Part shown: piece by piece, positions 8,520 to 12,238 of the stretch
How the letters are laid out: every line of letters starts with the position of its first letter
Position numbering within the stretch: the first letter of the stretch is position 1
DNA from: Methanothrix sp.
GTDB taxonomy: Archaea; Halobacteriota; Methanosarcinia; Methanotrichales; Methanotrichaceae
DNA: 35,465 nt
Direction: 5' to 3'
NCBI GenBank assembly: GCA_026394505.1
Contig: JAPKYC010000183.1
Span: 1 to 35,465 of the forward strand
The notes under the pieces: model-generated
What the model saw: the letters and a program-made list of their open reading frames with translations, nothing else
The model's database searches: none
Told to the model about the DNA's origin: nothing
Position numbers and translations under genes: made by a program

Positions 8520-9077
8520 ATGAGAATTTTAATGCCCCTGGCAGAGGGCTTTGAGGAGATCGAGGCGGTAAACGTCATCGATATTTTGCGACGGGCCGAT
8601 GTGGATGTTGTTGTGGCGGGATTAAAGGAGGGCCCAGTGGTTGGCTCTCATAAAATTAAAGTGCTGCCTGACACCACCCTGGAAAAAATCGACTATCGGG
8701 ACTTTGACGGGCTGGTCCTGCCCGGCGGAGCACCGGGCTTTGTCAACCTGGGAAATGATGAGCGCATCTTGAAAATGGCTCGGGAGATGGACCGGGCGGG
8801 AAAGGTCGTGGCAGCGATATGCGCGGCGCCCTCTGTGCTCATCAAGGCCGGCGTCCTGCAGGGCCGACGGGCCACGGTCAGCCCATCCGGAAAGGCCCAG
8901 GTGCAATCCTGCGCGAACTTCAGCGAGGATCGAGTGGTGGTTGACGGCAACCTCATCACCAGCCGCGCTCCGGGGACGGCTCTGGAGTTCGCCTTGAAGC
9001 TGGTGGAGGTTCTGGCGGGAACAGAGAAGATGAGAGAGGTCAAGGCGCAGACGATGGCCATATGCCAGGGAGACTAA
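8520..9077 (+). CDS. DJ-1/PfpI family protein
   Basis: 'MRILMPLAEGFEEIEAVNVIDILRRADVDVVVAGL', 'VLPGGAPGFVNL', 'AICAAPSVL' nucleophile elbow; start chosen at 8520, 2 nt after the upstream stop. Confidence 0.9.
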   Translation: MRILMPLAEGFEEIEAVNVIDILRRADVDVVVAGLKEGPVVGSHKIKVLPDTTLEKIDYRDFDGLVLPGGAPGFVNLGNDERILKMAREMDRAGKVVAAICAAPSVLIKAGVLQGRRATVSPSGKAQVQSCANFSEDRVVVDGNLITSRAPGTALEFALKLVEVLAGTEKMREVKAQTMAICQGD

Positions 9078-9327
9078 GGGAATCCTAAGACTGGTTCATC
9101 GCCTGGCAATGATTCTGTGGTTGGATTTTGGGGACGGCAGAGAATAAGCACAAAGCTTGGCAGGAAATGCCACAGGCGAAGTTCAGAGCCAATCAGGCGC
9201 CACCAGGTGGATACCCGTCGACGAGCTGGCTGCGCTCCCGCTAGCGTTGCTGGAGCGTGGGTTGCAGGGCGAGCTTTGAGGAAAAAGCTTACATCGGTGT
9301 GGTTGATGATAGATCCATGAGGATCTC

Positions 9328-10659
9328 ATGGCAAAAGGAATAACACGCATCTCTGTAAAGGGCTTCAAGTCTCTGGCTGAAGAGTGCTCAATTGAAATTC
9401 GCCCCCTGACAATATTGGCTGGAGCCAATAGCTCAGGCAAGTCTAGCATAATGCAGCCATTGCTTATGATGAAACAAACATTAGAAGCCAGTTACGATCC
9501 CGGAGCCCTCTTGATCTCCGGTCCAAATGTCCTTTTCACCTCGACGGAACAATTTCTCTCTAAATCAAATGGCAAATCCTCTGATAGTTTTAAAATTGAG
9601 TTTGATCTAACTAGCTCGTTCTATCTCATGGAAACATTTAAAAAAGAGCCAAAAAAAGGCCTTGAGATCACTGAGATGACTTACCTTGCAGGAGAAAAGA
9701 TTGTAACAACTTTGCGCCCTGGACAGGGATATAAAGCCCTCCTTTTAACAGTTCCTTGGCTCGTGGATGTATGGAATAACTTCATAAAAACTCAAGGCAA
9801 GAAAATTGAAGATGAGCTTGAATTAAGGACATACCGCATTCGGTGTTTTTTGGATATCGGATATTTTCCAATTAAGAAAGCAGATGATGAAACCTATGCA
9901 TCACCTCTCCTAGTGCAATACATGTCCGACACCTTCGGGACGCCTCTGCGTGGAATACTCCACATATCAGCTCTGCGCGGGAATCCTCAGCGCACTTACA
10001 AAATCGCAGCCATAACATCACAATTTCCAGGCAAATTTGAGGATTATGTTGCCAGCATCGTATATCACTGGCAGGTTTCAAAAGATGTACGTCTTAAGGT
10101 GCTTGGAAAAAATCTTGAACTTCTGGGACTAACTCGCAAGATAGGAGCCAAAGCTATTGATGATACTCAGGTTGAGCTTCTTGTCGGGCGTCTCCCCGCG
10201 AGGTCCATCAATGGCTCAAAGGATATGGTGAGCATCGCAGATGTTGGATTCGGCGTATCCCAGACCTTGCCGATTCTTGTTGCACTTCTTACGGCAGAGC
10301 CAGGCCAGCTAGTTTACATCGAGCAGCCAGAGATCCACCTACATCCGAAGGCTCAGATGGCAATGGCACAAATTCTAGCGGACGCAGCTAACCGGGGCGT
10401 TCGAGTAGTGGCGGAGACCCACAGCTCCCTATTGCTCTTAGGCGTCCAGTCTCTTGTTGCAGAAGGCAAGCTCTCTTCTGATAACGTTAAACTTCATTGG
10501 TTCAAGAGGAGGCCGGTTGACGGCGTTACCGAAGTATCCAGCGCTGATTTGGACAAAGCCGGAGCTTTCGGCGATTGGCCCGAGGATTTCTCTTCTGCCG
10601 AAATGGACGCCGATACCCGTTACATACATGCAGCCGAGGCCAGCCTGGAGTCGAACTGA
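9328..10659 (+). CDS. AAA/ABC-type ATPase (AAA_21/DUF3696-like, OLD-like)
   Basis: Walker A 'GANSSGKSS', signature-like 'DVGFGVSQTLPILVAL', Walker B 'LVYIEQPEIHLHP', H-loop 'VVAETHSS'. Confidence 0.88.
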   Translation: MAKGITRISVKGFKSLAEECSIEIRPLTILAGANSSGKSSIMQPLLMMKQTLEASYDPGALLISGPNVLFTSTEQFLSKSNGKSSDSFKIEFDLTSSFYLMETFKKEPKKGLEITEMTYLAGEKIVTTLRPGQGYKALLLTVPWLVDVWNNFIKTQGKKIEDELELRTYRIRCFLDIGYFPIKKADDETYASPLLVQYMSDTFGTPLRGILHISALRGNPQRTYKIAAITSQFPGKFEDYVASIVYHWQVSKDVRLKVLGKNLELLGLTRKIGAKAIDDTQVELLVGRLPARSINGSKDMVSIADVGFGVSQTLPILVALLTAEPGQLVYIEQPEIHLHPKAQMAMAQILADAANRGVRVVAETHSSLLLLGVQSLVAEGKLSSDNVKLHWFKRRPVDGVTEVSSADLDKAGAFGDWPEDFSSAEMDADTRYIHAAEASLESN

Positions 10660-11189
10660 TGCGTTCTGCGGAGTCTAAAAGCCTGGTTATTGATGCATCT
10701 GTTGCCACGTCTACCGGTGAGCGGGGCCGGAGGGGCGAACTCTGTCAGACCTTTTTGAGAATAATGATAGACAAGACCGTCCATCGCTTGGTAATGACGA
10801 AAGAGATAGGTGCTGAATGGGATATACACTCTCATCCTTTTGCTCGCCGCTGGCGAAGGAGCATGAATGCCAAGAGAAGAGTTGACCGGCCTGCAGTTGA
10901 TCATGATCTCATATTGGCTCAAAAGATTGAACGGGCAAATCCACCGGAAAAGGCTCTTGTTGCCATGGAAAAAGATCTGCGTCTCATCGAAGCGGCAAGA
11001 GCAACTGATGACCGTATCGTCTCTCTCGATGACACTGCCAGGAGATTTTTTTGTGCGGCTTCAAGTAGCGTTGGCGATCTCAGGGGGATTATGTGGGTAA
11101 ATCCAGTTAATGAGAACGAGACACCAATCCAATGGTTAAAAGAGGGCGCTCCGAGCGATGAGCAGCGGCTGATATGCCCATCCACATGA
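10659..11189 (+). CDS. PIN-like domain protein, translationally coupled to the upstream ATPase
   Basis: TGATG overlap with the upstream stop (10657-10661); PIN-type acidic residues: 'LVIDASVA', 'VMTKEIGAEW', 'ARATDDRIVSLDD'. Confidence 0.75.
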   Translation: MRSAESKSLVIDASVATSTGERGRRGELCQTFLRIMIDKTVHRLVMTKEIGAEWDIHSHPFARRWRRSMNAKRRVDRPAVDHDLILAQKIERANPPEKALVAMEKDLRLIEAARATDDRIVSLDDTARRFFCAASSSVGDLRGIMWVNPVNENETPIQWLKEGAPSDEQRLICPST

Positions 11190-11214: not shown

Positions 11215-12075
11215 CTAAACCAGAGGCTCCGGCTGCTTGCCCTCCGGCGCCAGCGGCAGGCCCGCCCGGTGCATGGCCAGGGGCCCGGAGAAGTGCAGCG
11301 CCCGGTTCAAAAGCAGGCGCTTGCCCTCATCAGTCAGGGCGAAGACGGGAATGGAGATGCCCATCTGCAGGCGGGCAATCTTTCCCACAACCTCCCGCAC
11401 CGCCTTTGAGGCGCAGGACCAGACCAGATCACAGCTCTGTGACAAGGCGGTGGCCTGCGCCTCGCTGATACCTGTGGTGTGGACTGCCAGCAAAAAAGGC
11501 CTTGTCCTTAGCTTTGCCCCCACCTCCCTGAGCGCAGCGGCATCGTGGGCATTGGTTCCTGCAACGGTTACGGCGATCTTCTGAAATCCCGCTGCCACTG
11601 CCCTTTCGTAGCCACGCATCTGATCGACTGTCGCCTGCCGGTCGAGCAGAAGGCAGCCCCTTTTCGCCAACCCCTCCTGGATCTCGGCAATGGGCTCGGT
11701 CTGGATCAGCCCGGTCATGTGCGCCCCCACTGCCTGCAGCACATCCGGCCTTGCCGCCACCACCGTGCCCGCGCCCTCGCATACGACCACGGCAGCGTCC
11801 ACCAGGCCTTCGCCCATGGCATCCATCAGGATCTCGGAGGCACCAAAACTTACGGGCTTTTCCTGAAGCTCTAAAACCCGCTGCGGGCCATACATGCCCG
11901 GCTCCTGCATGTGGCCTTGCAATACGCGCTCTACGCTCTCCCGGCTCTCCTTCTCGATGCTGTACAGATCCCGGCGCAGAGGGCAGCAGCTAATGAGAGG
12001 ATCGGTCAGCACCTCGATCTTGCCGTCTTTTACCCTGACCCTTGCTTTGGCCATCTCCAGCAGATGCTCGGACAT
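11215..12075 (-). CDS. Methanogenesis marker protein 8 (DUF2099)
   Basis: Full-length match to remembered family pattern ('CCPLRRDLY..', 'VVVCEGAGTVVA..PDVLQAVGAHMTGLI', 'VTVAGTNAHDA', 'AVHTTGI'); internal ATG start preferred over the longer ORF. Confidence 0.85.
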   Translation of the reverse strand: MSEHLLEMAKARVRVKDGKIEVLTDPLISCCPLRRDLYSIEKESRESVERVLQGHMQEPGMYGPQRVLELQEKPVSFGASEILMDAMGEGLVDAAVVVCEGAGTVVAARPDVLQAVGAHMTGLIQTEPIAEIQEGLAKRGCLLLDRQATVDQMRGYERAVAAGFQKIAVTVAGTNAHDAAALREVGAKLRTRPFLLAVHTTGISEAQATALSQSCDLVWSCASKAVREVVGKIARLQMGISIPVFALTDEGKRLLLNRALHFSGPLAMHRAGLPLAPEGKQPEPLV

Positions 12076-12079
12076 TTTA

Positions 12080-12238
12080 TTACCTGGCAATTTTGGTATT
12101 CGTCGATTTGCAGCGCGGGCAGGGCAGCTTGTAGCCAAAGCCCTTGAAGAGCAGACTGCAGTCCTGGCACCTGTAATTCTTGGCAAAGACATCTTCCGTG
12201 CTGCCCAGATCCACTCCACAGCCGCAGGTGGCACACAT
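12080..12238 (-). CDS. Small double zinc-ribbon protein, immediately upstream of marker protein 8
   Basis: MCATCGCGVDLGSTEDVFAKNYRCQDCSLLFKGFGYKLPCPRCKSTNTKIAR; several CxxC pairs; 4-nt gap to the next gene. Confidence 0.65.
   Translation of the reverse strand: MCATCGCGVDLGSTEDVFAKNYRCQDCSLLFKGFGYKLPCPRCKSTNTKIAR

Follow-up and report, generated by a model that had tools for sequence, protein, structure and literature searches.

An archaeal ATPase–PIN gene pair in Methanothrix, most likely a mobile defence cassette behind type I restriction genes

Introduction

PARIS (AriA/AriB) and Septu (PtuA/PtuB) each combine an SMC-like ATPase with a nuclease encoded by a separate gene, the effector being a TOPRIM protein (AriB) in the former and an HNH protein (PtuB) in the latter. 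A PADLOC candidate system, HEC-03, comprises a PIN-like protein (HEC-03A) and a DUF3696 ATPase (HEC-03B); HEC denotes an Hma-embedded candidate, and Hma stands for helicase-methylase-ATPase (PMC12988326). In EcoprrI, the anticodon nuclease PrrC is embedded in a type I restriction-modification (R-M) operon (PMC3874165). PIN proteins have been reported as necessary for defence against phages in systems unrelated to this one (PMC13092281), and PIN effectors in defence are thus not new in themselves.

Here, we analyse a window of 35,465 nucleotides from Methanothrix sp. (assembly GCA_026394505.1, contig JAPKYC010000183.1), in which an initial annotation had singled out an ATPase gene and a following gene for a PIN-like nuclease as a candidate defence or toxin system. 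Comparison with relatives indicates that the pair is most likely a mobile defence cassette carried behind type I restriction genes, whose sensor and nuclease parts are swapped independently. As predicted from sequence and structure models, its function would add an archaeal ATPase–PIN pair to the class of sensor-ATPase/nuclease defence systems.

The gene pair and its products

The two open reading frames, their lengths (443 and 176 aa) and the TGATG in which the ATPase stop codon overlaps the start of the second gene are exactly as initially annotated (Table 1). The motifs reported for the ATPase are likewise intact, namely Walker A (GANSSGKSS), a signature-like motif (DVGFGVSQ), Walker B (LVYIEQPE) and the H-loop (ETHS). 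Across 11 archaeal sequences, none of these motifs varies in its core residues. The protein matches Pfam AAA_15 (E=1e-26) and AAA_21 (E=1.5e-24), and its structure model resembles the heads of SMC, Rad50 and PtuA (Foldseek, E down to 2e-12), with residues 421–441 forming an unplaced, low-confidence helix.

Table 1. Features of the ATPase–PIN locus and its borders (window coordinates).
Feature	Position	Strand	Evidence
DJ-1/PfpI family gene, left border of insertion site	8520..9077	+	Pfam DJ-1_PfpI E=7e-50; NCBIfam TIGR01383 above cut-off
Frame-disrupted hsdS 3' end relic (type I R-M specificity subunit), ends at hsdS stop codon	9193..9279	+	blastn, nhmmer, genus-wide DNA search
Cassette leader: conserved GAAAAAGCTTACATC and GAGGAT ribosome-binding site before ATPase start	9280..9327	+	most aligned ATPase–PIN loci, directly 3' of hsdS stop
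Predicted sensor ATPase, SMC/PtuA-like ABC ATPase near DUF3696 (443 aa)	9328..10659	+	Pfam, PADLOC, alignment, model
ATPase codons 422–443, C-terminal helix switching with PIN type	10593..10659	+	identity comparison, model
PIN-fold protein, putative RNase effector (176 aa; D12, E53, D106, D124)	10659..11189	+	AlphaFold, Foldseek, alignment, dN/dS
DUF2099, methanogenesis marker 8, right border of insertion site	11215..12234	-	Pfam DUF2099 E=8.5e-93; NCBIfam TIGR03275 above cut-off

The second protein, initially noted for its PIN-type acidic residues, is indeed predicted to adopt a PIN fold. Its AlphaFold model (12 relatives as input; pLDDT 84, pTM 0.82) has PIN proteins as top Foldseek matches: the RNase P proteins PRORP/HARP, VapC and Nob1, with probabilities mostly of 0.94–1.00 and moderate TM-scores. 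Because the best E-value is 1.3e-3 and none reaches 1e-3, support for this modelled fold is strong but not overwhelming. No aligned PIN sequence departs from D12, E53 or D106, and D124 is changed only in the most distant relative, to Glu; two hallmarks of the PIN domain superfamily, the predicted fold and the conserved catalytic acids, are present. Searches of the protein against Pfam, PADLOC, NCBIfam and PDB sequences gave nothing meaningful (PADLOC none at E<=1), and no relatives were found in viral contigs or, by tblastn, in phages and plasmids.

The ATPase is patchily distributed, occurring in 9 of 26 Methanothrix genomes, the MAGs used being incomplete and mixed; beyond the genus, the pair was found in two further genera of the same family and in two distant genomes of the phylum. 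Adjacency of the two genes, proposed earlier as a check, is thus conserved across genera: in all archaeal loci with both genes present they adjoin, ATPase first, although these locus counts come from related genomes and are non-independent, and two loci (G007 and G021) are interrupted by contig ends. Values of dN/dS (0.06–0.13 for PIN and 0.15–0.23 for the ATPase) indicate purifying selection on both genes, and together with the adjacency they place the pairing above chance.

Relation to known systems

The best PADLOC match of the ATPase is NsnB (198 bits, 7.5e-59) of Menshen (NsnA/NsnB/NsnC), and the second is HEC-03B (134 bits, 1.4e-39, partial length). The NsnB match is one at superfamily level, since NsnB gives 315 bits with a Gluconobacter Menshen ATPase, and 199 bits with HEC-03 ATPases as well; moreover, the window pair differs from Menshen in having neither NsnA nor NsnC, its neighbours being DJ-1, PIN-like and DUF2099 genes. 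For the tie to PARIS and Septu suggested at the outset, we found no support beyond that for other SMC-like ATPases. The layout of an SMC-like ATPase with a separate nuclease gene is shared and the ATPase fold is PtuA-like, but the partner is a predicted PIN protein; the window pair has no AriB match in PADLOC and no HNH match in Pfam or PADLOC. As in EcoprrI, an ABC ATPase and a putative RNase are found in a type I R-M operon in two relatives (G012 and G007), the window having only an hsdS tail. In PrrC and RloC, however, the ATPase and nuclease are parts of one chain, whereas the archaeal pair consists of two genes that also occur without R-M genes. The nuclease domain of the single-chain PrrC is HEPN, not PIN.

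The nearest described architecture, not named at the outset, is that of HEC-03, in which an ATPase gene is likewise directly followed by one for a short protein that opens with a PIN-like IDxxV motif. The 134 bits of the archaeal ATPase on HEC-03B, which is not its best family, nevertheless compare with 367–445 for the bacterial HEC-03 ATPases tested. The archaeal PIN protein has no HEC-03A match, and its profile comparison with two HEC-03A proteins gave a probability of about 1% or less. Furthermore, the window pair has no RNA ligase gene, and in Methanothrix the archaeal pair is linked to type I R-M. Because its PIN protein is not significantly similar to HEC-03A, the pair is HEC-03-like in architecture and not a member by the models. 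As to whether it is already a named system, HEC-03 covers the pair in part, in its architecture, but the HEC-03A model does not match the PIN protein.

Our bacterial survey covered plasmids and phages. Here, plasmid ATPases with 24–28% identity to the window ATPase match HEC-03B best, and short PIN-like proteins matching HEC-03A come next; these are followed by an RNA ligase gene in Rhodococcus, Aeromonas, Azotobacter and Tistrella, and by an HNH gene in Acinetobacter. By analogy, the ligase gene would fit RNA as the target, an argument that is one of architecture only, as the bacterial PIN-like proteins and the archaeal PIN protein share no significant profile similarity.

A DUF3696 ATPase, a PIN-like protein (HEC-03A) and an RNA ligase lie in a row at plasmid loci L021 (2998–5560), L023 (2974–5602), L131 (2477–5095) and L136 (1233–3693), where the ligase matches no PADLOC model. 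On a Planktothrix plasmid (L022, 348–7332), a methylase, a DUF3696 ATPase, a PIN-like protein and a ResIII helicase form one run in an R-M-like setting.

Insertion site and hsdS relic

In five relatives, the DJ-1 and DUF2099 genes are 32–220 bp apart with nothing between them, and thus represent the empty site. The window pair is flanked by metabolic genes with no dense defence island around it, and no convincing terminal or target-site repeats were found at its insertion borders. The degraded region noted upstream of the pair is real and was identified as an hsdS 3' end: window positions 9193–9295 share 78% identity with the hsdS 3' end of G012 (blastn, E=8e-17), and the relic was also recovered with an nhmmer hsdS-tail profile (E=6.5e-16) and a genus-wide DNA search (E=3e-16). 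Whole HsdR, HsdM and HsdS proteins gave no tblastn match in the window, and owing to the frame disruption the relic is detectable only at the DNA level.

In G012, DJ-1 is followed by intact hsdR, hsdM, hsdS, ATPase and PIN genes, with a gap of 47 bp between hsdS and the ATPase; the same gap is seen in G007, where hsdM, hsdS and the ATPase extend up to the contig end. Given the hsdS-tail match and this intact layout, the degraded region is what remains of a type I R-M system formerly located upstream of the pair. Most likely, the window pair came to its site together with a type I R-M island, or through recombination from one; the hsdS tail is all that is left of this island, and the context of the pair is accordingly explained as a piece of such an island surviving alone. 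The GAAAAAGCTTACATC of the leader may be an archaeal promoter element. Two short upstream ORFs (67 and 88 aa; 9117–9449) were considered as an antitoxin and rejected because they lie across the hsdS relic or the ATPase gene and neither is conserved as a protein.

The position of the pair directly 3' of hsdS in G012 and G007, together with the EcoprrI precedent of PrrC within a type I operon (PMC3874165), might suggest that the pair guards the R-M system, with the type I enzyme keeping it silent and a virus that blocks restriction setting it off. We regard such a role as unlikely. The pair is intact without adjacent hsdRMS in the window, G004, G016, G024 and G008. It is also kept in the window's genome (78% complete), where no HsdR N-terminal domain was found, and in G021 (97% complete), where neither HsdS nor HsdR was found, which makes the guard role less likely. 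Moreover, Gabija genes in G019 occupy the same place after hsdS; this position therefore reflects cassette location more than function.

Mosaic structure of the ATPase

The favoured reading of the pair as a mobile defence cassette with exchangeable parts draws on two natural mosaics. The pair of G024 occupies the same DJ-1/DUF2099 site as that of the window, and the two ATPases share 80–97% identity up to residue 421, but 32% over residues 422–443, with 36% between the PIN proteins. Conversely, G012, G004 and G008 share 86–91% identity with the window in the ATPase tail and 71–76% in PIN, whereas ATPase residues 73–205 show 17–28% in these three and 17–33% across the loci sharing this PIN type. 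The ATPase tail thus follows the PIN protein, while the middle of the ATPase varies independently. By these comparisons, the tail (422–443) probably docks the PIN protein and the variable region (about 73–205) probably senses the trigger. The two mosaics, the same sensor with another nuclease and the same nuclease with another sensor region, therefore mark the likely sensing and docking parts of the ATPase.

hsdS tails beside other defence genes

The genus-wide DNA search located the hsdS tail in 38 places in 17 of the 26 genomes. The shared stretch is about 90 bp long and has an abrupt start at about CTCGACGCC; its end coincides with the hsdS stop codon, and the flanks on either side differ. 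In G016, G008 and G012, directly repeated tails enclose the ATPase–PIN pair, the second mostly beginning 1–2 bases past the stop codon of PIN. Similar tails border GajA (E=6e-168) and GajB (4e-71) in G019, with hsdR-hsdM-hsdS upstream exactly as in G012, as well as a GajB-like gene in G009, TumE (8e-23), VapC-like PIN_2 genes and, in several genomes, HD + DarG-like pairs. The defence context supposed for the pair is hence borne out by the type I R-M run and by the occurrence of such tails next to Gabija and toxin-antitoxin genes as well.

Tentatively, we propose that the terminal ~90 bp of a single hsdS lineage serve in Methanothrix as repeated borders of exchangeable defence cassettes (ATPase–PIN, Gabija, HD + DarG-like, TumE and VapC-like), which would be moved by recombination between direct-repeat tails in an integron-like array behind a restriction system; the ATPase–PIN pair, in turn a mosaic whose sensor and nuclease parts can be exchanged, would be one such cassette. 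That this is so seems to us about as possible as not, with some leaning to caution. The tails may be active recombination borders; repeated pseudogenisation of hsdS copies could also have produced them, though on several contigs the tail arrays come without specificity domains. No description of hsdS 3' ends as cassette borders was found in the literature searched, the coverage of which was limited, so that an earlier description may exist. Their presence next to several defence genes of unrelated kinds points to a simple way in which archaea may collect and exchange defence cassettes, a question usually posed only for integrases and transposons.

In many Methanothrix genomes, tails without the rest of hsdS, often several in succession, adjoin Gabija, TumE, VapC-like and HD + DarG-like genes, as at L123 (1278–6266; contig C51 of G019), L118, L119, L120, L121, L122, L125 and L130. 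A recurrent two-gene unit beside such tails encodes an HD-domain protein and a 184-aa protein weakly similar to DarG, the latter having no match in Pfam (L026, 5628–7491; L118, 46–1913; L120, 3909–5782).

Proposed function

We consider it probable that the pair is a sensor-ATPase/PIN-RNase defence pair, acting by abortive infection or by restricting the virus; its trigger, complex formation, RNA substrate and defence outcome are inferred along the following lines. The ATPase would dimerise as an SMC/PtuA-like head and hold the PIN protein via its C-terminal helix, while its variable middle (about 73–205) would probably detect a sign of virus or foreign-DNA infection. An ATP-driven rearrangement might then activate or release the PIN nuclease, which would cut host or viral RNA, most likely tRNA or another structured RNA, and so stop the infection. 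In support of this proposal are the conserved pairing, the intact ATPase motifs, the PIN fold and its acids, and purifying selection, as well as the way in which the ATPase tail covaries with PIN and the association with type I R-M and further defence cassettes. Counting against it are the Foldseek E-values above 1e-3 with moderate TM-scores, the failure of family libraries to recognise the PIN protein, the change of D124 in the most distant relative, and the placement of the window pair among metabolic genes.

Somewhat less likely even than the guard role is that the pair is a toxin-antitoxin system, with PIN as a VapC-like toxin and the ATPase as its antitoxin, serving mainly to stabilise mobile DNA. 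The modelled PIN fold is closest to VapC and RNase P proteins, and the pair forms a small, overlapping and mobile operon whose hsdS-tail flanks are the same as those of TumE and VapC-like genes; VapB-type antitoxins, however, do not resemble an ATPase of 443 aa in which every motif is conserved, and the variable middle of this ATPase suggests sensing. The pair could serve in defence and as a toxin-antitoxin system at once. Lastly, SMC/Rad50-like ATPases commonly act on DNA, and FEN nucleases are PIN-like and cut DNA, yet a DNA target, onto which the ATPase would load the PIN-fold protein to act as a flap- or end-nuclease for defence or repair, is improbable, given that the best structural matches of PIN are RNases, that bacterial relatives have an RNA ligase gene, and that the patchy presence argues against housekeeping repair.

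Other copies of the pair

The window's genome (G000) holds a second ATPase–PIN copy on contig C184 (L033), near a kdpA-like gene, and a second DJ-1 region with an hsdS tail scar on contig C151 (L068, 5006–5775). As the two DJ-1 regions are about 91% alike, the second pair may derive from another strain; strain mixture or duplication may account for these copies. Across 248 kb of loci around DJ-1 genes or distant pairs, there was one hsdS-tail remnant, adjoining this second DJ-1 copy. Elsewhere in the family, in two further genera, the pair lies within a few kb of an SMC-ScpA region (L028, 1516–9567; L029, 571–10951), in arrangements that differ from each other and are without hsdS tails.
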